Below are positions 2,242-47,862 of a stretch of DNA of 64,000 bases, piece after piece. Position 1 is the first letter of the stretch. Every line of letters begins with the position of its first letter. The translations under genes and the position numbers were made by a program. The notes beneath the pieces were generated by a model. The model made no database searches and had not been told where the DNA came from. It was given only the letters and a program-made list of their open reading frames with translations. Source of the DNA: Luteitalea sp. TBR-22 (GTDB lineage: Bacteria; Acidobacteriota; Vicinamibacteria; Vicinamibacterales; Vicinamibacteraceae); contig NZ_AP024452.1 in assembly GCF_016865485.1 (NCBI RefSeq), forward strand, positions 4,052,501 to 4,116,500. The letters are read 5' to 3'.

Positions 2242-4194
2242 CTAGCCCCCGTGGGCGAAGTGACGCAGGACCGCGTCGGCGGCCTTGGCCCCGACCACGG
2301 TGGTCAGTTCTTCGCGACTGGCGCGCCTGACGCCGGCCAGGCTTCCGAACGCGGTCAGCAGTTGCTTGCGGCGGCGGAGGCCGATCCCCGGGATGTCGTC
2401 GAGGTCCGATCGCAGGTCCCGGTTGGCGCGGGCCGTGCGGTGGAAGGTGACGGCGAACCGATGCGCCTCGTCGCGGATGCGCTGCAGCAGCCGGAGGGCG
2501 GGTGTCCCCTGCCCGAAGCCGATCGGCTCCTCCCGGTCGCGCGTGAACACCAGTTCCTCCTGCTTGGCCAGCCCGACGGCCACCAGATGGTCGAGGCCGA
2601 GCCTTTCGAGCGCCTCGTAGGCGGCGTTCAACTGCCCCTTGCCACCATCGATCACGATCAGGTCCGGCCACGGCCCATCGTCGTCGGCCACCTTCCGGTA
2701 GCGCCGCGTCACCACCTGGTGCATGGCGGCGAAGTCGTCGAGGAAGCGAGCCTCGGCGCCGCCTCGGCGCGGCACACGGGAGTCGGGAGTCGGGAGTGGG
2801 GAGTCGTGGCTCTCCCACCTGTCGGTACTCAACGGCGCCGGCTCTGCCCTATTCCCGATTCCCGACTCCCGACTCCCGTCTGTGTTGCCCGTGTGCCGAA
2901 TCCGGAACTTCCGGTACTCCGAGCGCTTCATGCGGCCGTCCTGGCAGACGACCATCGACGCCACGGTCTCGGCGCCCTGGAGGGTGGAGATGTCGAAGCA
3001 GTCGATCCGCCGCGGCAGCGCCGGGAGTCCGAGGGCGGCCTGCAGGGTCTCGAGGGCCTCGTGGTTGCTGGCGCCTTCCTCGTTGAACCGCGCGTCGTAC
3101 GACAGCGACGCGTTGCGCTCGGCCAGTTCGAGCAGGGCCTTCTTGTCGCCGCGCTGCGGCACGCTCATCTGGACCTGACGACCGGCCCGCGCCGACAACC
3201 ACTCGGCGAGCAGGTCCATGTCGGGCAGCGCCACGGGCAGCAGCACTTCCGGCGGCGGGGGCGTGTCGCCGTAGAAGTGCATCACGGCTCGTTCCAGCAG
3301 GTCGTCGAGGCGCGCGTCGCGCGCCTGGTCGGCGTTGGTGACCAGTTCCACACGGTCCACCACGCGCCCCGACCGCACCTGGAAGGCCTGCACCACCGCG
3401 CCGGCCGGACCGAGCTTCACGCCGATCGCGTCGCGGTCGCCCATGCGCGGGGTGGCCATCTTCTGCTGGCGATCCCGCAGCGTCTCGAGGGTCCTGATGG
3501 TGTCGCGCAGCTGCGCCGCCTGCTCGAAGCGCTCCTCGTCGGCCGCGGCGTACATCCGCGACTCCAGGTCGCTGACCAGTTCATCGGTGCGGCCGTCGAG
3601 CAGCAGGCGCGCGTCGCGGACGGCGTGCTGGTACTGATCGGCCGTGCAGATGGAGGCCACGCACGGCGCCAGGCATCGCTTGATGTCGTACTCGAGGCAG
3701 GGGCGGCCGCGCTGGCCGGTGATCACCTCGCGGCACGAGCGGATGCCGAACAGCTTGTGCGACAGGCTCCGCGTCTGCCAGGCCAGCGACGCCGGCATGA
3801 ACGGACCGGCGTAGTAGTCGCCGTCGGCAGCGACGCGGCGGACCACCGACACCCGGGGGAAGGGCTCGGAGACGCTGAGCCGCAGGTACGGGTACGTCTT
3901 GTCGTCACGGAGCTTGATGTTGTACTTGGGCGACCGCTCCTTGATCAGGTTGTTCTCGAGCGCCAGTGCCTCGACGACCGAGTCGGTGACGATGACGTCG
4001 AGCCCGGCGGCCTCGTCGAGCAGCGCCTCGGTCTTGGGCGAGGTCCCGCGCGCCCCGAGATAGCTCCGCACGCGGTCGCGGAGCGCCCGCGCCTTGCCGA
4101 CGTAGATCGTCTCGCCTGCCCGGTTGAGGTACAGGTACACACCCGGCTGCTCCGGCAACCGCGCGATCTGTGCTCTGAGGTCCTCGATGGCCAT
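2242..4194 (-). CDS. uvrC: Excinuclease ABC subunit C with an internal repeat-derived insert
   Basis: UvrC makes the two incisions flanking a lesion in nucleotide excision repair, working with UvrA and UvrB; uvrA is also in this window at 12.4 kb. Domains in order: GIY-YIG nuclease (residues about 12-95, with GVYLYLNRAGETIYVGKA), the UVR motif that binds UvrB (about 200-235, MYAAADEERFEQAAQLRDTI), the RNase-H-like 5' nuclease domain (IDCFDISTLQGAETVASMVV, then DLIVIDGGKGQLNAA), and C-terminal helix-hairpin-helix motifs (DIPGIGLRRRKQLLTAFGS). The protein is 650 residues, slightly long. Roughly residues 434-475 are foreign to the family. They are encoded by an inverted pair of GGGAGTC arrays inserted in frame between the two halves of the RNase-H-like domain. 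Whether the enzyme tolerates this is untested, but the frame is open throughout. Confidence 0.95.
   Translation of the reverse strand: MAIEDLRAQIARLPEQPGVYLYLNRAGETIYVGKARALRDRVRSYLGARGTSPKTEALLDEAAGLDVIVTDSVVEALALENNLIKERSPKYNIKLRDDKTYPYLRLSVSEPFPRVSVVRRVAADGDYYAGPFMPASLAWQTRSLSHKLFGIRSCREVITGQRGRPCLEYDIKRCLAPCVASICTADQYQHAVRDARLLLDGRTDELVSDLESRMYAAADEERFEQAAQLRDTIRTLETLRDRQQKMATPRMGDRDAIGVKLGPAGAVVQAFQVRSGRVVDRVELVTNADQARDARLDDLLERAVMHFYGDTPPPPEVLLPVALPDMDLLAEWLSARAGRQVQMSVPQRGDKKALLELAERNASLSYDARFNEEGASNHEALETLQAALGLPALPRRIDCFDISTLQGAETVASMVVCQDGRMKRSEYRKFRIRHTGNTDGSRESGIGNRAEPAPLSTDRWESHDSPLPTPDSRVPRRGGAEARFLDDFAAMHQVVTRRYRKVADDDGPWPDLIVIDGGKGQLNAAYEALERLGLDHLVAVGLAKQEELVFTRDREEPIGFGQGTPALRLLQRIRDEAHRFAVTFHRTARANRDLRSDLDDIPGIGLRRRKQLLTAFGSLAGVRRASREELTTVVGAKAADAVLRHFAHGG
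2771..2897. repeat. Inverted-repeat element inside uvrC built from GGGAGTC units
   Basis: The element is bounded by a perfect 10-bp inverted repeat, GGCACACGGG at 2771-2780 and CCCGTGTGCC at 2888-2897. Inside the left end are GGGAGTC units in tandem (2778-2805). Inside the right end are the complementary units CCCGATT/CCCGACT (2853-2878). The central 45 bases are unrelated. The transcript would fold into a long imperfect hairpin. It lies within the uvrC frame and encodes a Ser/Pro/Arg-rich insert. The same architecture occurs between tdk and efp. Confidence 0.8.
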
Positions 4195-6471: not shown

Positions 6472-6482
6472 TGGCGGACGAC

Positions 6483-6579
6483 GGGAATCGCGAATGGGGA
6501 GTCGGGAGTCGACCGACGCGGCGATGGAGGCTGGCGGGAGCGCCGTCGGCGACTCCCGATTCCCGCCTCCCGACTCCCG
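6483..6579. repeat. Inverted pair of GGGAGTC/GGGAATC arrays between efp and tdk
   Basis: The left arm carries GGGAATC, GGGGAGTC and GGGAGTC units (6483-6511). The right arm carries the complements CGACTCCC, GATTCCC, CCTCCC and GACTCCC (6550-6579). About 38 unrelated bases lie between. The arms can form a long stem, like the element inside uvrC. In this gap it could act as a transcript-end hairpin, which is inference. Confidence 0.75.
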
Positions 6580-6586
6580 GAAGTGA

Positions 6587-7653: not shown

Positions 7654-8775
7654 ATGCGGCGCCTGCTCCTGCCTGCCGCCCTCGTGGCGGCCAGTTTCTT
7701 CGCGGGCATGGTCGTCACCGGGCGCCTCGGCCCCGGTGAGCAGGCCACCGCCCAGTCCGGAGTTCCCGCGCCAGCCACGCCGGCGCCGACGCGCCCGGCG
7801 CTGCCGAGTGGTCCGCTCCCCGAGCTGGCCGACGTCGCCGAACGCGCGATGCCGAGCGTGGTCAACATCTCGGCCGTCGGGTCACGGCAGGTGCAACTGC
7901 CCTTCGGGTACTTCGACGAGCCGACCCAGAGCGCCGGCTCGGGCGTGATCATCAAGAGGACCGGCGACACCGGCTACGTGCTCACCAACGCGCACGTCAT
8001 CGGCGACGCCACCGAGATGACGGTGGTGTTGTTCAACCGTCGCGAGCGCCCGGCCGAACTGGTGGGCATCGACCCGTACGCCGACCTCGCCCTGCTGCGC
8101 GTCAAGGATCCGACGCTGCAGCCCATCACCTGGGGCGACAGCTCCAGGCTGCGCGTCGCCGAATGGGTGATGGCCATCGGCAACCCCTACCAGCTCGGCG
8201 AGACGGTCACGCTCGGCATCGTGTCGGCGCTCGGCCGCACCAATCCGCAGATCTCGGTGGTCGCCGACTACATCCAGACCGACGCCGCGATCAACCCCGG
8301 CAACTCGGGCGGCGCGCTCGTCAACCGGCGTGGCGAGCTGGTCGGCATCAACACCTGGATCTACAGCCAGAGCGGCGGCTATCAGGGCATCGGCTTCGCC
8401 GTGCCGAGCAACCTGGCGCGCGACGTGGCGACGCAACTCGAGCGGTTCGGCAAGGTGCGGCGCGGCACGATCGCCGGGATCCTGCGGATTGCGCCCTTGA
8501 ACACCGCGCTGGCCGCCGACCTCGGCGTGCGATCGACCGAGGGCGTGGTGATCTACCGCATGCGGCGCGGCCAGGGCGACGCCTGGGCGGCGGGCATCCG
8601 CGCCGGCGACGTGATCGTCGGCTTCAATGGCACGCCGATCACCGACACCGAGGGCTTCGAGCGCGCGATGCTCACTGCCCCCGTCGGCTCGGTGGCCACC
8701 CTGCGCGTCCGACGGGGCCGCGAGGAGTTCGACATCAAGGTGCCGATCACGGACGCGCCGGTGAGGAACCAATAG
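7654..8775 (+). CDS. DegP/HtrA-type periplasmic serine protease
   Basis: Trypsin-like S1C protease with one PDZ domain, expected in the periplasm for protein quality control. The 373 residues start with a signal anchor (MRRLLLPAALVAASFFAGMV) and a Pro/Ala linker, then the catalytic domain with His in LTNAHVIGDA, Asp in IDPYADLALLRV and Ser in AINPGNSGGALV. The PDZ domain follows (WAAGIRAGDVIVGFNGTPI, about residues 280-365). This is the DegS/HhoA layout with a single PDZ rather than DegP with two. It sits immediately downstream of an Hsp20 gene. Confidence 0.95.
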   Translation: MRRLLLPAALVAASFFAGMVVTGRLGPGEQATAQSGVPAPATPAPTRPALPSGPLPELADVAERAMPSVVNISAVGSRQVQLPFGYFDEPTQSAGSGVIIKRTGDTGYVLTNAHVIGDATEMTVVLFNRRERPAELVGIDPYADLALLRVKDPTLQPITWGDSSRLRVAEWVMAIGNPYQLGETVTLGIVSALGRTNPQISVVADYIQTDAAINPGNSGGALVNRRGELVGINTWIYSQSGGYQGIGFAVPSNLARDVATQLERFGKVRRGTIAGILRIAPLNTALAADLGVRSTEGVVIYRMRRGQGDAWAAGIRAGDVIVGFNGTPITDTEGFERAMLTAPVGSVATLRVRRGREEFDIKVPITDAPVRNQ

Positions 8776-8778
8776 AAC

Positions 8779-8880
8779 GGGAGTCGGGAGTCGGGAGTCG
8801 GGAGTCGGCACCAGCATCCCCTTCTGAACTCTGAACCGGAGTTCATGCTCTCTCAGCCCTGAGTCTCGAGCCCTGAGCCT
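8779..8880. repeat. GGGAGTC array and GAGCCCTGAG units in convergent gap
   Basis: Four GGGAGTC units occupy 8779-8807 directly after the protease stop. Units of the GAGCCCTGAG type follow at 8851-8880 just before the converging glycosylase gene. Two different repeat families therefore share one 110-base gap. Confidence 0.65.
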
Positions 8881-12230: not shown

Positions 12231-12379
12231 GAGACAGGGCTCAAGGCTCAGGGCTCAGGGCTTCTGGCTCATGGCTCAGGACTCAGGGCTCAGGGAGCAT
12301 GCCGGAGCCTCTGGGCCGGCGCTGGTCCGGCCCGATGCCCGGATCCCGGTGCCCGGTGCCCGGATCCCGGTGCCCGCCC
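12231..12379. repeat. GGGCTCA and GGTGCCC tandem arrays upstream of the HEAT gene
   Basis: From 12231 to about 12296 there are nine or so variants of GGCTCAGG / GGGCTCA. From 12341 to 12379 there are CCCGGTGCCC-type units alternating with GGATCC. Both families lie in the gap between uvrA and the HEAT-repeat gene and show no open reading frame of their own. Confidence 0.75.
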
Positions 12380-15353: not shown

Positions 15354-15691
15354 CAAACAACCAGCATAACAAGACCGGGCACCGGGCACCGGGCACCGAA
15401 CACCGGGCGGCGGGCACCGGGCACCGGGCACCGGGCGGCGGGCGGCGGGCGGCGGGCAGTAGGCAACGGGCACCGGGCAAACGAATGGGACCGGGGTCGC
15501 GGGTCGCCGGGTAGGGCCGGGACGCGGCCGGGCTGCGCCTCACGCGCAGGCAGCTCGGCACTGTGCGCCTGCGCCACACCGGGCGTTTGATCGCTTACCG
15601 AGCACACAAGGCCCCTCAGCCGACTCATCCACAGGGTCGTGCGTGCTCATCCGCGCCCTCCCGCAGCCGGTCACGCCTGAAAGGAGTCGTC
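15354..15691. repeat. Gene-free stretch with a long GGGCACC/GGGCGGC array
   Basis: This 338-base gap separates divergent uvrA and the haloperoxidase-like gene. From 15375 to 15481 it is an almost pure array of GGGCACC and GGGCGGC units, about fifteen copies with small variants. The remainder (15482-15691) is GC-rich and would have to hold both promoters. The only clear signal is an AAAGGAGT ribosome-binding site at 15680-15687. Confidence 0.75.
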
Positions 15692-17014: not shown

Positions 17015-17070
17015 CGGCCGTCGCCCGTTCGGACGGTCCGGTCGGAGACCGGGCCCTACCCGTAGCCTGC

Positions 17071-17100
17071 GACTCCCGATTCCCGACTCCCGATTCCCGG
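17071..17100. repeat. GACTCCC/GATTCCC array upstream of nagB
   Basis: Four alternating GACTCCC and GATTCCC units in tandem. This is a single arm of the family that forms inverted pairs in uvrC and at 6.5 kb. Confidence 0.7.
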
Positions 17101-22600: not shown

Positions 22601-22720
22601 GGGCTCAGGACGCAGGGCTCAGGGCTGTCGACGCGGGCTCAGGCCTCAGGGCTCAGGGCTCAGGGCTCAGAGATCTCTGTGAGTGGTTTCTGAGCCTCGA
22701 GCCTGTAGCCATGAGCCTGG
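22601..22720. repeat. GGGCTCA array with inverted right arm
   Basis: About ten GGGCTCA/GGACGCA/GGCCTCA units run from 22601 to 22670. After about 20 bases an inverted set follows (TGAGCCTCGAGCCTGTAGCC, ATGAGCCTGG). It fills the convergent gap between the kinase and the DUF1080 gene. Confidence 0.75.
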
Positions 22721-23408: not shown

Positions 23409-23466
23409 CGGCAGTCGGCAGTCGGCAGTCGGCAGTCGGCGCCGGCGGTCAGCGCTCGGCGGTCGG
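23409..23466. repeat. GGCAGTC tandem array
   Basis: Four perfect GGCAGTC units followed by degenerate GGCGGTC and CGCTCGG variants, in the 143-base gap between the divergent DUF1080 and bpt genes. Any promoter for either gene must sit beside or within it. Confidence 0.75.
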
Positions 23467-30997: not shown

Positions 30998-33900
30998 TCA
31001 CGCCGTGGCCCTCAGACGATCGCTCCACTGATCGAGCATCGCCGCCAGTTGCTCCTGCCGGATCGGCTTCGACAGGTAGTCGTCCATGCCGGCGGCGAGG
31101 CACCGTTCCCGGTCTTCCTGCATCGCGTTGGCGGTGAGCGCCACGATGACGTGCCGCCGGTCGCCTTCGCCCTCGCGGATCCGCCGGGTCGCCTCGAAGC
31201 CGTCGCACTCGGGCATCTGGCAATCCATGAGCACCACGTCGTAGGGCACCCGTGCGGCCAGCGCGATGGCCTCGAGGCCATTGGCCGCCACGTCGACGTG
31301 GTGCCCCAGTTTCTGGAGCATCCGGGTCGCCACCCGCTGGTTCACCGCGTTGTCCTCGGCCACGAGCACGCGCAGATGCCGGCCGCCCGGCTCGGCCGGC
31401 GAGACGCGGCGGTTCGCCGTGCCACGCCCCGCGCCGAGCGCGAGCGTCACCGCGTCGAGGAGGGCCCGCCGTCGCGCCGGCTTGGCGACCAGGGCGACGA
31501 AGCCCTGCGCGCGCGCCTCGTCGGCAGCGCCGGCCCGGACGCCAGGCGCCACGAGCACGAGCGGTACCTGGCCGTGCGGCTCCCGCAGCTGACTCCGAAG
31601 CACGCGGGCCGCGTCGTGCGACACGCCCGCACCGAGGAAGACCATCGAGACGAACTGTCCCGCCGCGCCCATCCGACGTGCGACGTCGAGGGCGTCCTCG
31701 ACCCCCGCGACGCAGGTCACGTGCACGCCCCAGCCGTTGAGGACGGACTCGATCGCATGCCGGTTGATCGCGTGCGCGTCGACGCAGATCGCCCGGTGAC
31801 CCTCGACGATCGCGGGCACCGCGAGTTCATGCGGCGCCTCGGAGACCCCCATCCGACAGGTGAACCAGAACGTGCTGCCCTGCCCCGCCGCACTGCTCAC
31901 GCCGACGCTGCCGCCCATCGCCTCGACGATCTGGCGGCTGATGGCCAGCCCCAGTCCGGTGCCGCCGTACTTACGCGTCGTCGAGGCATCGGCCTGCGTG
32001 AACGGCGTGAACAGCCGTGCCTGCGCCTCCGGGTCGATGCCGATGCCGGTGTCGCTGACCTCGAAGCGCAGCACGACGTCCGCGTCGCCCTCGACGTGGC
32101 CGCTGACGTGGACGTGCACCGTGCCGCTGGACGTGAACTTGACGGCGTTGCCGAGGAAGTTGGCCAGCACCTGCCGCACGCGCCCCGGATCGCCCATGAC
32201 CATGGCCGGCACGCCGGGCTCGATCACCAGGCCGCACTCCAGGCCCTGGCGGCGGGCGCCGTCGGCCACCAGATCCAGCGCGTCCTCGATCACCCCCGCC
32301 AGGTCGAACGACACGACCTCCAGGGAGATGCGCCCCGCTTCGCCCTTGGAGAAGTCGAGGATGTCGTTGATCACGCCGAGCAGGTGATCGGCCGACGACC
32401 GCACCGCCTCGGCGCACTCGCGTTGCTCGCCGGTCAGCTCGGTGTCGAGCAGCAGGCCGGTCATCCCCACGACGCCGTTGATCGGCGTGCGGATCTCGTG
32501 GCTCATCGTGGCGAGGAAGGCGCTCTTGGCCGCGCTCGCCTCTTCCGCGCGGCGCGTCGCGTCGGCCAGCGCCGCCGTGCGCCGGCGCACCCGCGCGTCC
32601 AGCTCGCCGACCAGTTCGTTGAGCGCGTGGTTGGCCCGCTCGCGATCCTGGAGCGCCGCCTCGAGTTCGACGCGGCCGTCGCGCAGGCGCTCGAGCATCG
32701 AGTCGAAGTCGGCCGCGAGCCTGGCCACTTCCGCAGGCGCGCTCTCGTGCACGTCGGTCCTCGCCACGGGGCCGTCGGCCGTCACCGTGCGCGCCGCCGA
32801 CACCAGTTGCTCCAGCGGCGCGGTGACGCGACGCGAGGCGAACCCGAGCAGCGGGAGCGCGAGGGCCAGGCTGCCGAGCACACCCAACGTCGTGATCACG
32901 TAGTACTCGGCCACCGGCACCTGCACGGTGGTCACCGGGATGCGGGTGAGGACGGTCCAGCCGAGGCCGGGAATCGCCTGCCGCGCCGACCAGAACGACT
33001 GACGCGCCCCGCCATCAGCCTGGTGCGGCCTGCCGTCGGCGCCCGCCACTCGCACCCACGACGAGTCTGCCGCCGAGGCGAGCAGGCGCAGCCCGTCGGG
33101 GCCCTCGGACGCGACCACGTGCTGCCGTTCGTCGAGGATGACCGCCGACTGCGACGGCATGAGGATCTCGCGCATCCGGAGGGCGAGCCGTCCCAGGTCG
33201 AGCGAGCCTTCTGCAACGCCGTCAACGACGCCGTCGTGCCGCCGGCTGATCGGCGCGCTCAGCGCGACGATGGGATCGGAGCCGAAGCCACGGCCGCGGA
33301 ACACCTCGGAGCGGTAGCCGGCTCCCGTGCGGAGCGGCACGCGGAAGTACTCGCGGTCGCCGACCGACCGGCTCCCGGTCGTGGCGATCGGCCGTGACGG
33401 CCCGCTCAGGCGCGACGACCCGGCGCGCGTGAGGCCATCGCGCCCGGCCACCAGCATCGTCAGGAAGCCGTCGTGCAGGCCGTGGTGCTCGAGCAGCACC
33501 GCCTGCACCTCCCCGTGGTCGAGGCCGACGTGCTCGAGCCGCTGCGCCAGCGACGCGACCGCGAGTTCGTGCAGACGGACGTACTCGCCGACGCGATGCG
33601 CGATCAGCGCGGCGCGGTCCGCGAGCGCCGCCCTCGCCTCCTGCTCGGCCCGCCGCATCTGCAGGCCGCCGAGCCCGAGTCCGAGCAACACGAGGGGGAT
33701 GGTCACCAGCGGGACGGTGTGCACGAAGATGGCCGATCGGAGCCCGGGACGCTCCGTCGCCGGCGCCACGCCACCGAGCCAGCGGCGCACGGCGGGCTGC
33801 GCCCCGACCAACTGCGCGATGCCGATGTTGAGCAGGCCGTTCAGCGGCTGCTTGGCCAGCACCAGGAGCGTCGCCGCCGCCGTGACGCCCTGGGTCGAGC

Positions 33901-34318
33901 GATGCACCAGCAGGATGAGCGGGATCCCGAACAGCACCCAGTAGCCGACGCCGGCCAGCAGCGGCGACACCCGACGACGCGCGAGGCTCACGACCGCGAG
34001 CACCTCGCCGGCCGCGAGCACGGCCATCAGCCACGAGTGATACGCGAGGCACGTGCGCGCCGTGGCGAGGACCGCCGTCAGGGCGCCCCACCACGGGCCG
34101 AGGACCAGGCCGATGACCAGCGACACGGCGCCGTCGAGGCGCAGGACCATGTCACCGGCCAGCGGCGGGCCCCACGCGATGAGCGCGTCGCCGGCGGCGG
34201 CGCCGACGAGCGCTATCGCGAGATAGCGCGCCGACCGGATGCTGCCGCGATACGGCCGGAACAGGGAGCCCGGGGCGCCTGTGGGCTGAAGGTCCTGCGC
34301 TGTTTCGCCCCGGGTCAC
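30998..34318 (-). CDS. Membrane hybrid histidine kinase with Cache-like sensor, pseudo-receiver and receiver
   Basis: 1106 residues from a GTG at 34318 that has GGAAGG just upstream; the frame runs further but reads the antisense tail of the next gene. Domains: an integral membrane block of about six helices (residues 20-190), a TM helix, a large extracytoplasmic sensor of Cache type (about 200-440), a second TM ([20 protein letters not shown]), HAMP, a coiled coil, HisKA ([19 protein letters not shown]), HATPase ([27 protein letters not shown]), a degenerate receiver lacking the phospho-acceptor ([13 protein letters not shown]), and a canonical receiver ([25 protein letters not shown]). Close paralogue of the adjacent gene, with different input domains. 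Confidence 0.92.
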
Positions 34319-34389
34319 CCCCCTTCCATCGGCAGGGGGGAGAGGAACTGGAGGCGCGAAGGGCCCGGGCCTGCCGGCAAGAACCGGCG

Positions 34390-37300
34390 CTAGACCGCGA
34401 GACGCGTCGGCCCGTCGGTCACGTCGCGCGGCTGCCACTGCCGGAGGGCGTCGCGCAACTGCTCCTTCCGGATCGGCTTGGTCAGGTAGTCGTCCATCCC
34501 GGCGGCGCGGCAGCGGTCCCGATCCTCCTGCATGGCACCCGCGGTGAGCGCGATGATGACCTGGTGGCGCCCGTCGTCCTCGCCGGCCCGGATCCGCTGC
34601 GTCGCCTCGAAGCCGTCACACTCGGGCATCTGGCAGTCCATCAGGACGACATCGAACGGCAGGCGTCCGAGCATCTCGATCGCCTCCCAGCCGTTGCTGG
34701 CCACGTCGACGTGGTGCCCCAGCTTCTCTAGCATCTTCGTCGCGACCCGCTGGTTGACCGTGTTGTCTTCGGCCAGCAGGATCCGGAGCGGCGGCCCGAT
34801 GGGCGCATGCTCGGCGGTGACGGTCGCCGATTCGGGGCGGGCGACGCCGAGCGCATCCGCCAGGGCGGCAAGGAGGTAACGCCGTCGGATCGGCTTGCTC
34901 ACGAAGGCACTGAAGCCTGCGGCGCGCGCCTGCTCGGCGGCGCCCGGCTTCACGGTCGGCGCCACGAGCACGAGCGGGACGATGCGGCCGGCGGCATGGG
35001 TGCGGATGCGATCGCGCAACTCCAGCGCCGCGTCGAGGCCGTGCGGGGTGCCGACGAACACGACGTCGACCTGCTGGTCCGTCGTCGCCGCGGCGGCGAG
35101 GACCTCGACCGCGTCCTCGGCCGTCTCGACGCACGTCACCTGCATGCCACAGGCGGCCGCCGTGACGGCGATCATGTGGCGGTTGATGGGATGCGGGTCG
35201 ACGCAGACCGCCCACCGGCCGGGGGCGAGTGCCGCCGGGGTGAACTCGCGCGGTGCGTCGGTCAGGCCCAACCGCGCGGTGAACCAGAAGGTGCTACCGA
35301 CGCCCGGAGCGCTGTGCACGCCCACCGCGCCGCCCATCGTCTCGGCGATCTGCTTGCTGATCGCCAGGCCCAGGCCCGTGCCACCGTACTTGCGGGTCGT
35401 GGAGGCGTCGGCCTGCGTGAAGGGCGTGAACAGGCGAGCCGCGGCCTCGGGCGCGATGCCGATGCCCGTGTCGGTCACCTCGAACCTGAGGCGCGCCGCG
35501 TCCTCGTCGACGACGTGGCTGCTGACGTGCACGTGCACGGCGCCTGCGGCCGTGAACTTGACCGCGTTGCCGAGGAAGTTGACCAGCACCTGGCGCAGCC
35601 GGCCCGGGTCGCCGACCAGCATGTCGGGGACGTCCGGCTCGAGGATCACGCCACACTCCAGGCCCTTGCGGCGGGCGGCATCGGCCACCAGTTCGATGGC
35701 CTCCTCGACGACGGTCGGGAGGTCGAAGGGCACCGACTCCAGCGTGATGCGACCCACCTCGCCCTTCGAGTAGTCGAGGATGTCGTTGATCACGCCGAGC
35801 AGGTGGTCGGCCGATCCGCGCACCGTCTCGACGTACTCCCGCTGTTCGCGCGTCAGGTCGGTGTCGAGCAGGAGTCCGGTCATCCCCACCACGCCGTTGA
35901 TCGGCGTCCGGATCTCGTGGCTCATCGTCGCCAGGAAGCTGCTCTTGGCGGCCGTGGCCGCCAGCGCCATGTCGCGGGCCCGCGCCAGCTCCACGGCCTG
36001 CAGCTCGATCTCGTACAGGTACTCGTCGCGCGCGCGCTCGGCGGCCGCCCCGGCGGCGTTGTCCTGCAGGAAGACCCACTGCATCGGTTCGCCCTCGGGG
36101 CTGAACACGCGCAAGCCGCTGACGACCACCGGCACGGACTGGCCGCTCGCGGCGCGCAGCTCCGTCGTGAGCGGCCGGAACATGCCCGTGGTCTCGAGTT
36201 CTTGTCCATGCGCGGTGATGGCCTCAGCGGGCACGCCGACCGCCTCTGGCCTCAACGAGTCGAGGGCGCCATCTTCCACCTGCAGCAGGGCGAGCGCCGT
36301 GCGGTTGGCCAGCACGGGCCGGCGGGCCGCGTCGGAGAGGATCATGCCGATCGGCGCGTTCTCGAACAGTTCCCGGAAGCGTGCGGACGCCAGCGACTCC
36401 TCGCGTCGGGCCTGGTCGCGTTCGTCGAGCAGCCGGCTCAGGTCCCGGTTGGTCGCCTCGATCAGGTCGGCCTGCCGACGACTGGCGGCGACATGCCTGA
36501 CGCCCCCGCCGAGCGACGCGGCCAGGAGCACCCCGAGCAGCAGGACCAGGTGCGGCAGCGCCGAGGTCTGCTGGTCGAGCAGTTCCGGTGTCGGGGCCAT
36601 GGCCAGGTCGACCGGGACGCGCCCCATCAGCAGGATCCGGCGAGCCGCGACGGGCGCGCCCGCGGCGAACTGCCCGTCGGCGCCGATGGCCACGCCGCCA
36701 CTCCGGACGTGGTAGGCGTAGGACGCGTCGGCGAGTGGGGTCCGCAGCAGGCGGGCGAGCGCGAATGCGGTGGCCAGGAAGCCGGCTGGCCGGCCCGAAC
36801 GGTCGAGGCGCTGCAGGAGGGTGAACCCCATCTCGCCGTCGAGCAGTTGCGTCGGTCCACGCAGGACCGGCTCGTGCGTGTCCAGCATGCCCGCGAGTGC
36901 GACCCGTTCTGCCGGGGTGAGGACCGCCAGCGCAGCGCGCACCCTGCCCTCGGCGGCCTGCGGCCGGACCCACGGGTTGGACAGGTCGTCGAAGCGGGCC
37001 AGCGTGATCGCGTTGATCCGGCCCTCTGCGTCGACGACGTGCTGGTTCGCGTCCGACAGCCAGAGCGCCGCCTCGAGTTCGTTCCCCGTCTCGATGCGCT
37101 TGCGCATCCGTTCGAGCGACCTGACCATGCCTCGAAGCTCCTCGTGCAGGGCGGCCTCGATGCGATCGAGCCTGGTCTCCTGCAGATGCGCCACGGTGGC
37201 GCGCTCCTGGGCAATCAGGACCAACGTCAGCACACCGCTCACGGCCACGGTGTAGGCGGCCACCGTCAGCGGCGCCCAGGCGCCCCAGTGCACCAGGCCG

Positions 37301-37935
37301 CGGCGCACCTCGTAGTGGAGCATCGCCAGGGCCACCAGAATCGATGCGCCGGCCATCTGCGGCGACATGCTCAACCGATGCAGCCACGGGTCGCCCGTGG
37401 TGTGCCCGGCATAGCTGGCGATGGTCGTCAGCGCCAGCAGGCCCAGGACCAGTGCGGTCGCAAGCGGCAACAGTCGCAGCCACAGCCAGAGCCGCGCCAG
37501 GCGGCCCGACCCCAGCCTGAGTCCCACCAGCGATACGAGGAAGATGGCGAGCGCCGATTGCGGATGGCTGCGCTGCAGCGGGTCGGCCGAAAGGCGCGCA
37601 TCGAGCCACGTCACGGTGCCGGGCGACACCATCGAAGCCACGTGCCACACCAGGGCCGATGCCGCCAGCACCAACCCGATCCCGGCGGCGCCACGCGCCA
37701 GCGTCTGCCTCCCTCGTGCTGCCGCGAGCAGCCCGATGATGCCGAACGAGAACCCGAGGGCCGATTGGAGCCGGAACTGCTGCACGCCCGGCAGCGTGGG
37801 GACCAGTGCGGGCACGTGCAGGACGTGCCCGACCACGCCGGCCACGCAGACCAGGAGCGCGAGCGCCAGCAGGACCGTACTGACCAGATGCGGGCCCTGG
37901 CGCATGTCGGTGGCGGTCGGCGGTGGCATCGGCAC
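34390..37935 (-). CDS. Membrane hybrid histidine kinase with CHASE-like sensor, PAS, pseudo-receiver and receiver
   Basis: About 1181 residues. The GTG at 37935 follows GGAGG at 5 bases; an ATG lies two codons later at 37929. The frame extends to 38259 but there overlaps the divergent kinase. Domains: six or seven N-terminal helices, an extracytoplasmic CHASE-like region (about 240-470) closed by a TM helix ([20 protein letters not shown]), PAS ([20 protein letters not shown]), HisKA ([19 protein letters not shown]), HATPase ([27 protein letters not shown]), a degenerate receiver ([11 protein letters not shown] in place of the Asp strand), then a canonical receiver ([25 protein letters not shown]). 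The kinase and receiver modules closely match the downstream paralogue, so duplication with sensor swapping is likely. Confidence 0.92.
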
Positions 37936-38080
37936 GTCAGCCTCCACCCCGGAGGTGGAAACCGTATTGTCGGGAGCAATCGGCCCTCCACGGAGTTTCT
38001 TCAGGAATTGGCCGCGATTGGCGACACTCCACTTGCGACTGTCTCCATACCCCTCGGCCTTGCTACAGTGCTTGGCGCCG

Positions 38081-40144
38081 ATGTTCCTTTCCTTGCCTGC
38101 CGCCGCGCTTCTCCTGGGCGCGGCACTTGCTGGCGCCGCGCTGGCCATGCTCGGGTGCCACTGGGCCGGCCGCGTCCGGCGCGCCCATGCGGCGCGCGTC
38201 GAGGCGATCGTCGCCCACTCGATCGACGCCGCGTACCGCCGCGACCTCCGCACCGACACGTACGACTACCTGAGCCCGGCCCTCGAACGTGTCATGGGCG
38301 TGCCTGCACCGGTCCTGCAGGCCATGCCCCTCGACGAGTTGATCGACAGGATCCACCCGGAGGACCGCGCCCGCGTCGGGACCGTGGTCGAAGCCAGCAC
38401 CCGCATGCAGCGCGGCCGGGTGGAGTACCGCTTCCGCGCCGACTCGGGCGAGTACCGGTGGATTGCCGACCACTGGGCGGTGGAACCCGATGCCGAGGGA
38501 CGCCCCGCGTTCCGCAGCGGCATCCTCCGCGACGTCTCCGAGCAGAAGGCCACCGAGGCGGCGCTCCGCGCCAGCGAAGCCCGGTATCACATGCTGTTCG
38601 ACTCGATCGAGGACGGCTTCTGCATCGTCGAGGTGCTCCTCGACGCGCAGGGGGAGCCGCGCGACTATCGCTTCCTCGAAGCCAATCCCGCGTTCGACGG
38701 CGCGACGGGCCTGCGGGAGCCGGTCGGCCGCACGGCGCTCGAGCTGGTCCCGGGCCTCGACCGGTGGTGGGTACGCGCCTACGGCCGGGTGGCGCTCACC
38801 GGCGAGCCGGCGCGCTTCGAGAACTACGCGGCCGCGATGCAGCGCTGGTTCGACGTGTATGCGTTCCGCTTCGGCGATCCCGAAGCACGGCAGGTGGCGA
38901 TCTTCTTCAAGAACGTCACCGAACGAAAGCGCAACGAACTCGAGCGGGCCGCCCTGCTGCAACGCGAACGGCACGCCCGCACCGAGGCCGAGCGGGCGAG
39001 CCGGCTCAAGGACGACTTCCTCGCTACTATCAGCCACGAGTTGCGCACGCCGCTCAACGCGATGCTGGGGTGGGCGCAGATCCTCGCGCGTGGTGCCGAC
39101 GAGACGACCATCGCCCAGGGCCTAGGCGCCATCGAGCGCAACGCGTTGGCGCAGGCGCGGCTCATCGAGGACCTCCTCGACATGAGCCGGATCGTCACCG
39201 GCACGATTCGCCTCGACGTGCAGCCGGTCGACATGCGCCGGGTGATCGCCAACGCCGTCGAGACGGCGCGCCCGGCGGCCGAGGCCAAGGGGATCGGCAT
39301 CGCGATCATGCTCGACGAGGGCGCGACGGCGGTGCGCGGCGACGCGACGCGCCTGCCGCAGGTCGTGTGGAACCTGCTGAGCAACGCCGTGAAGTTCACG
39401 CCGCGCGGTGGCGAGGTGCACGTCCGCCTCGAGGCCGCCGGCCCCGACGTCCGCCTCACCATCACCGACACGGGTGAAGGCATCGCCGGCGATTTCCTGC
39501 CGCACGTCTTCGAGCGCTTCCGGCAGGCCGACGCGTCGACCACGCGGATGCACGGCGGCCTGGGACTCGGCCTGGCCATCGTCAAGCAGATCGTGGAACT
39601 GCATGGCGGCCAGGTGAGCGCGCGCAGCGAGGGCGCCGACCGAGGCGCGACGTTCGTGGTGACCCTGCCACGGCAGCCGGTGGCACCGCCGGCGCCGCCG
39701 GACGATCACGAGGTCGGCGGGTTGCAGGCGTCGCATCCGCCGTCCACGCAGCCCGAGGTGAGCCTGGCCGACGTCACCGTGCTGGCGGTCGACGACGAAC
39801 CGGACGCGCTGGCGGTGATCCGGCGGGTGCTGGAGGACCACGAGGCACGGGTGCTCACCGCGACCTCGGCCCACGAGGCGGTGACGCTGTGTGCGCGCGA
39901 GCACCCGCACGTGCTGCTGGCCGACATCGGCATGCCGCACGTGGACGGCTACGACCTGATCAAGCAGGTGCGGGCGCTGGGCGCCGAGGGCGGCGGCAGC
40001 GTGCCGGCCGCGGCCCTCACGGCGTTCGCGCGATCGGAGGATCGCACCCGCGCGCTCCTGGCCGGCTACCAGACGCACCTGGCCAAGCCGGTGCAGCCGG
40101 TCGAACTGGTGGCCGCCGTCGCGAGCCTCGCAGGACGCGTGTGA
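38081..40144 (+). CDS. Hybrid histidine kinase with two PAS domains and a C-terminal receiver
   Basis: 687 residues from ATG 38081. A single N-terminal helix ([20 protein letters not shown]), PAS 1 ([20 protein letters not shown] with PAC segment [19 protein letters not shown]), PAS 2 ([19 protein letters not shown]), HisKA ([19 protein letters not shown]), HATPase ([45 protein letters not shown]) and an intact receiver ([25 protein letters not shown]). It is divergent from the paralogous kinase pair, about 145 bases apart, and convergent with the sialic-acid lyase gene. Confidence 0.93.
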
Positions 40145-47740: not shown

Positions 47741-47862
47741 CTTGGGCCTTGGGCCCTGGGCCTTGGGCCCTGGGCCTTGGCCTTGGGCCTTGGGCCTTGG
47801 CCTTGGGCCTTGGGCCTTGGGGCCTTGGCCTTGGGCCTTGGGCCCTGGCCTTGGGCCTTCCC
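47741..47862. repeat. GGGCCTT/GGGCCCT tandem array
   Basis: About 120 bases made almost only of CTTGGGC and CCTGGGC-type units with few substitutions. It begins downstream of the Gfo/Idh stop and ends two bases before the left inverted repeat of the IS481-type element. Any open frame through it is low complexity. Confidence 0.85.

Follow-up and report, generated by a model that had tools for sequence, protein, structure and literature searches.

To our knowledge, tandem arrays of seven-nucleotide units have been known from scattered bacteria for decades, with no agreed mechanism. The STRR heptanucleotides of cyanobacteria were reportedly described by Mazel and colleagues in 1990, and the Rickettsia palindromic elements (RPE), attributed to Ogata and colleagues in 2000, are said to be conserved palindromes of ~100-150 bp that fall into few families. 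Arrays of GGGNATC in Xanthomonas and of GGGGAYT in Nostoc were characterized by Rehm et al. 2015 (PMC4692102), who found that they form convergent pairs and lie close to the ORF on their 5' side, and who proposed G-quadruplex roles. Arrays of TAACTGA have been reported in Beggiatoaceae (MacGregor 2015, PMC4679880). According to a 2025 survey (PMC12699852), short tandem repeats are not generally enriched in bacteria.

In Luteitalea sp. TBR-22, an insert of this type lies in frame within uvrC; it is one representative of the heptanucleotide arrays that are spread over the whole genome and fill weakly constrained DNA. It belongs with the heptanucleotide-array class: a strict 7-nt period over at least 2-3 units, dispersal mainly in intergenic DNA, convergent pairs and 5'-ORF proximity were all found. 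As in the GGGNATC repeats (PMC4692102), a near-identical unit of period 7 occurs at hundreds of dispersed, mostly intergenic sites, and convergent pairs always take one orientation, with the 5' side nearer the ORF whatever the direction of the latter. Unlike those repeats, the Luteitalea arrays belong to numerous unit families that coexist in one genome (most of those in the sister species G001 lack GGG, and several of these are polar too); some stand in frame in conserved genes, and orthologous sites exchange one unit for another. With STRR and TAACTGA (PMC4679880) the arrays share tandem heptamers, a mostly intergenic and strain-specific distribution, 7-nt indel steps and mixtures of related heptamers; TAACTGA differs in being oriented mainly toward start codons and in having few ORF copies, mostly at protein ends, with no recurring internal loop of one gene. 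The tolerance of in-frame repeats as exposed insertions in ordinary protein genes is a property shared with RPE, but the insert is not an RPE: the Luteitalea arrays lack a conserved palindromic consensus and have a heptamer period with changing units. Finally, REP/REPIN elements are likewise short, inverted, intergenic and present in high copy number; unlike the heptamers, they are GTAG-type palindromes, which TBR-22 possesses separately, next to its RAYT gene. Searches of the open-licence literature gave no account of such arrays in Luteitalea or of the UvrC loop; apparently new are the hotspot in a coding loop, the turnover of units and the large number of units that are not of the G-quadruplex type.

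The window, that is, the whole 64-kb stretch of DNA analysed, corresponds to G000:C1:4052501-4116500 of the 6,468,984-bp TBR-22 genome (features in Table 1). Apart from the repeats, it contains at 30998-38259 two long hybrid histidine-kinase genes (HATPase plus receiver domains) side by side, whose DNA is 72-80% identical in blocks spaced ~3.4 kb, apparently as the result of a tandem duplication. The ORF at 2242-4194 is uvrC, the GIY-YIG, UVR, both UvrC RNase H and HHH_5 domains all being matched in Pfam. The sequence-only reading had described an insert foreign to the family and tolerated within an open frame, and this description holds: the UvrC Pfam and PDB matches lie on both sides of the insert, and the Thermotoga maritima structure 2nrt aligns with residues 378-433 and 485-637 of the TBR-22 protein, with 3 residues between the aligned blocks in 2nrt and 51 in TBR-22. 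The insert comprises ~50 codons, with two GGGAGTC heptamer arrays facing each other around a 42-bp spacer. In an AlphaFold model built from 33 UvrC sequences, residues 436-481 are the sole long low-confidence segment (pLDDT ~30), flanked by a well-predicted strand and helix, and the loop is therefore predicted to be disordered. The insert is presumably selfish or neutral, no function being needed to account for it, and peptides such as RESGIGNRESG are accounted for as repeat-derived rather than as functional domains.

Table 1. Position of uvrC, its insert and further GGGARTC-family arrays in the 64-kb window
Feature	Position	Strand	Remarks
uvrC, host gene of the insert	2242-4194	-	650-aa ORF, open throughout
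In-frame loop insert in uvrC	2746..2895	-	residues ~434-483; in the RNase H-like domain, between strand YRKFRI and helix DDFAAMHQVV
Left inward-pointing heptamer array	2770..2806	+	CGGCACA, CGGGAGT (three times), GGGGAGT, CG
Spacer between arrays	2807..2848	.	42 bp, single-copy; outside the arm matches elsewhere
Right inward-pointing heptamer array	2849..2898	-	CGGCACA, CGGGCAA, CACAGA, CGGGAGT (twice), CGGGAAT (twice)
Intergenic GGGAGTC-family array	6482..6511 (units 6483-6510)	+	~10 nt upstream of the start of a thymidine-kinase-like gene, inward
Convergent partner array	6549..6580 (units 6551-6578)	-	just past the stop of an EF-P-like gene
GGGAGTC array	8778..8807	+	starts 3 nt after the stop of a trypsin-like (DegP/HtrA-type) gene, 7654-8775
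Further GGGARTC array	17070..17099	-	

The architecture of the insert bears on whether it is a miniature inverted-repeat mobile element that entered uvrC with terminal repeats of its own. A perfect terminal inverted repeat and oppositely oriented GGGAGTC units had been claimed, and both are present: the GGGAGTC units occupy 2778-2805 on the plus and 2850-2877 on the minus strand, and the inverted repeat (CGGCACACGGG at 2770-2780, CCCGTGTGCCG at 2888-2898) is 11 bp long, so that it exceeds the claimed repeat by a base on either side. This perfect repeat and the many related arms in the genome are what a mobile element would offer. However, the repeat consists of the outermost heptamer plus CGGG in register, so there is no separate terminal repeat, and the idea of an element with its own ends fails. 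An 11-bp inverted repeat at such spacing is not rare in itself; 21 pairs exist in the window, nearly all within heptamer arrays. When the whole insert was searched against the seven family genomes, the one full match was itself, and the remaining matches, apart from a few hairpin-like hits with gaps and ~70% identity, were nearly all confined to the arms; no second copy of the 42-bp spacer was found in TBR-22 and the relatives' sequence searched. The expectation of other genomic copies was thus borne out for the arms and not for the element as a whole. Other inverted pairs have interiors unrelated to one another, many arrays are single, and relatives carry other units at the uvrC site. Comparison of the insertion site for a target duplication met relatives with other arrays or with diverged flanks. 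Neither conserved full-length copies nor terminal repeats distinct from the interior were thus found, and a mobile element of this kind is very unlikely. From the proposal of a mobile or self-copying repeat, self-copying survives as ectopic copying of heptamers, while mobility as one element is contradicted by the single-copy interior and the lack of a second full copy.

Movement of the insert as a unit finds no support in a target duplication or in a transposase either. The REP/RAYT elements, which depend on a Y1 tyrosine transposase for their movement, are one candidate, since two Y1_Tnp matches exist in the TBR-22 genome and REPINs likewise form inverted pairs, but the intact RAYT gene is flanked on either side by GTAG REPs and not by heptamer arrays. 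In addition, no Y1_Tnp match was obtained in the drafts of G003 and G004, yet the uvrC of G004 has an array, and a single transposase could not serve units of such diversity; the heptamers are extremely unlikely to be elements of this type. The intact RAYT-like gene (L127, G000:C1 ~6430954-6431163) is bordered by REPs of the GTAGGGCGCGGTG... type. Similar GTAG REPs stand next to heptamer arrays in numerous intergenic regions of both TBR-22 and G001, which points to two independent repeat systems in the same space.

Other genomes, too, have heptamer arrays in this UvrC loop. Its units are GGGAGTC in G001, GGGAACC in G002, CCGGCAA in G004 and GGGAATC in G005, while the loop is short in G003 and G006, and also in G002 and G005 in the loop comparison. 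The prediction that some relatives would lack the insert was therefore correct as to the short loops of these four genomes, but arrays of other units occupy the same loop. The outer CGGCACA of TBR-22 resembles the CCGGCAA of G004 and, judging from this likeness of letters, may be a relic. Among 80 UvrC loci of Acidobacteriota, the loop measures 7 to 77 residues where it can be delimited, and a strict period-7 array lies within it in 18 of the 80, with at least 17 different units. When all periods from 4 to 15 were considered at these loci, 24 arrays of period 7 were found against at most 2 for each of the others, except for the double, 14. A unit of 7 does not consist of whole codons; the process therefore operates at the DNA level and not on codons, even within coding sequence, and expansion of the loop at the protein level was ruled out on the same ground. 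All five inverted pairs in the UvrC loci run G-rich then C-rich, that is, inward, like the pair in the window; the left/right bias of G- versus C-rich arrays in UvrC is modest (p = 0.012). Thus, the UvrC loop is filled repeatedly, in frame and with different heptamers across the genus and the class, which is the mark of a recurring DNA-level process and not of a single jumping element, and the view that an element simply landed in the uvrC of this strain has to be abandoned.

The population to which the insert belongs was surveyed in 1.26 Mb of TBR-22 (one block of 864 kb plus 400 kb around GGGAGTC sites) and in 800 kb of G001 syntenic with TBR-22, gene edges being taken from a home-made gene finder. 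Period-7 arrays numbered 103 in the 864 kb of TBR-22 and 139 in the 800 kb of G001, any other period from 4 to 13 giving at most 13 and 20 arrays, respectively, and shuffled sequence none; in 464 kb, 44 period-7 arrays compared with 0 after shuffling. Array density amounts to ~1,140-1,400 per Mb of noncoding DNA versus 14-20 per Mb of coding DNA, or ~70-80 times more in the former, and the repeat class, as had been supposed, is otherwise intergenic, at hundreds of places in the genome, the convergent pair at 6.5 kb included. Triples of GGGARTC (overlapping places) occur 417 times in TBR-22, 84 in G001, 114 in G002, 5 in G003 and 0 in G004. The leading units are GGGAGTC, GGGCACC, GGCTCAG, GGCAGTC and GACGTTT in TBR-22, and GGGTACC, ACCTGAG, AACGCCG, CAGGCTG and others in G001, with tens of units per genome and mixed units within single arrays. 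Even the 64 kb of the window shows this unit diversity, with arrays of ACCGGGC, GGGCCTT, GGCTCAG and CGGCAGT at 15374-15457, 47741-47849, 12237-12306, 22635-22683 and 23409-23440. In a class sample of 20 genomes, whose sequence is largely N-masked and short, period-7 arrays were met in several families.

If local heptamers slipped during ordinary replication, each locus independently of the others, the variation in copy number and the mixed units within arrays would result. However, one unit is present at dozens of unrelated loci per genome and a different set in the sister species, and the polarity at gene borders is left unaccounted for, so that local slippage is quite unlikely to suffice. 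Another explanation, put forward for the GGGNATC repeats, is that the arrays are selected regulatory or structural elements, such as G-quadruplexes or hairpin terminators. The uvrC arrays contain 4 G-tracts, GGGAGTC units could by their composition form G-quadruplexes, the insert as RNA folds far beyond chance (z = -6.4), and arrays do lie near gene ends. Against this, the unit has neither GGG nor CCC in 35 of the 103 arrays of TBR-22 and 87 of the 139 of G001, most G001 families having no G-tracts, which rules out the G-quadruplex as a general driver; moreover, the unit at the same site differs between species, and arrays occur inside coding loops. Selection for such roles is thus unlikely as the general explanation, a role for some arrays being possible.

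The arrays are also oriented with respect to genes. Within a unit family, one strand tends to have its 5' end nearer the gene edge and the array heads inward; the anchor is usually placed 0-6 nt beyond a stop codon or 10-30 nt ahead of a start. This arrangement was found in 64 of 76 arrays of TBR-22 (null 46.7 +- 2.7) and 82 of 103 of G001 (null 67.1 +- 3.1), and was reached in 0 of 20,000 simulations in either species. A universal rule based on the G-rich strand was rejected, the counts being 79 to 27 in TBR-22 but 68 to 69 in G001: polarity is family-specific. Within the GGGARTC arrays of TBR-22, 45 of 65 start exactly between C and GGGART (p = 1e-23), with 3' ends spread over phases; the fixed 5' phase of this family is absent in G001. 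An enzyme dedicated to adding heptamers to 3' ends from an internal template (telomerase-like, another reverse transcriptase or an unknown polymerase) would leave a fixed 5' start, a variable 3' end and inward polarity. Nevertheless, no reverse transcriptase (RVT_1) match was obtained in the genomes of TBR-22 or its three congeners G001, G002 and G003, and tens of units per genome would require many templates, which makes such an enzyme a rather unlikely source of the arrays, although an unknown polymerase may be at work.

Comparison of the two species has shown that array sites persist at orthologous borders while their units turn over. Gene edges with an array in TBR-22 also have one in G001 in 28 of 77 cases, versus 55 of 499 otherwise (odds ratio 4.6, p = 1.3e-7), and the unit is identical in only 1 of the 28 common edges; at the border of the trypsin-like gene (window 8778), G001 has a CATGCCT/GATGCCT array instead. 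The phenomenon extends to other coding loops: a BirA-like and a glycosyltransferase-like gene carry different units in the same loop in TBR-22 and G001, and at least six more genes have an in-frame array in one of the two species. In the BirA-like gene (TBR-22 ~4021377-4022348; chunk 168877-169848), an AAGCGGG array directly follows ELKWPNDVMV, and the G001 ortholog has AAGGCCG in the same place. The glycosyltransferase-like protein (TBR-22 ~4607057-4608634; chunk 754557-756134) has 525 aa and a loop after SMGVPDPW with three GGCTCAG-type arrays; in that of G001 (chunk 693902-695821; 639 aa), a composite of AACGCCG and GGGTACC has been amplified as a long higher-order repeat. Furthermore, some of the GACGTTT / AACGCTT arrays at gene ends of G001 and TBR-22 (sites 11265 and 311896) provide the adjoining gene with its stop codon (TGACGTTTGACG..., TAACGCCTGACG...), the gene end itself having apparently been rewritten by the array.

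The reading we favour, to which we give roughly even chances, is that the arrays arise by recurrent, inward regrowth of 3' ends copied from arrays elsewhere in the genome. Dispensable DNA would break or lose a strand; at the border that survives, the trimmed 3' end would anneal by a few bases (CGGG, for example) to a distant array, be extended along it with slippage, and then be rejoined, the currently common unit being written inward from each border in this way. In coding loops, selection would keep only in-frame, stop-free products. Repair of breaks by such extension would give inward polarity at both borders, a common unit among loci, unit turnover and restriction to dispensable DNA, the uvrC loop included. 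Ku, and with it the means of end joining, was found in all seven family genomes. An age gradient, with older units at the 5' end, was not detected: ortholog identity stays at ~0.58 whatever the position of the unit, random partners giving 0.47-0.55, and the examples at sites 321547 and 576488 are anecdotes. Regrowth by itself does not account for the period being always 7, and its copying and rejoining steps are inferred.

The rule that emerges is a period fixed at 7 with a changeable unit, a 5' end at a functional border, an inward course and a site that is kept, and it narrows the mechanism to directional growth of 3' ends. The uvrC loop, with its at least 17 units, is a natural reporter, in which a DNA-level process can be traced in frame within coding sequence. 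As a speculative and rather improbable extension, the Vicinamibacteria, and perhaps Xanthomonas and Nostoc, may possess an undescribed enzyme system that builds seven-base units onto the 3' ends of DNA, working from both edges of a dispensable stretch. If this were true, seven-base synthesis would be an analogue of telomere addition in bacteria without a reverse transcriptase, continually rewriting their intergenic DNA and some of their protein loops.
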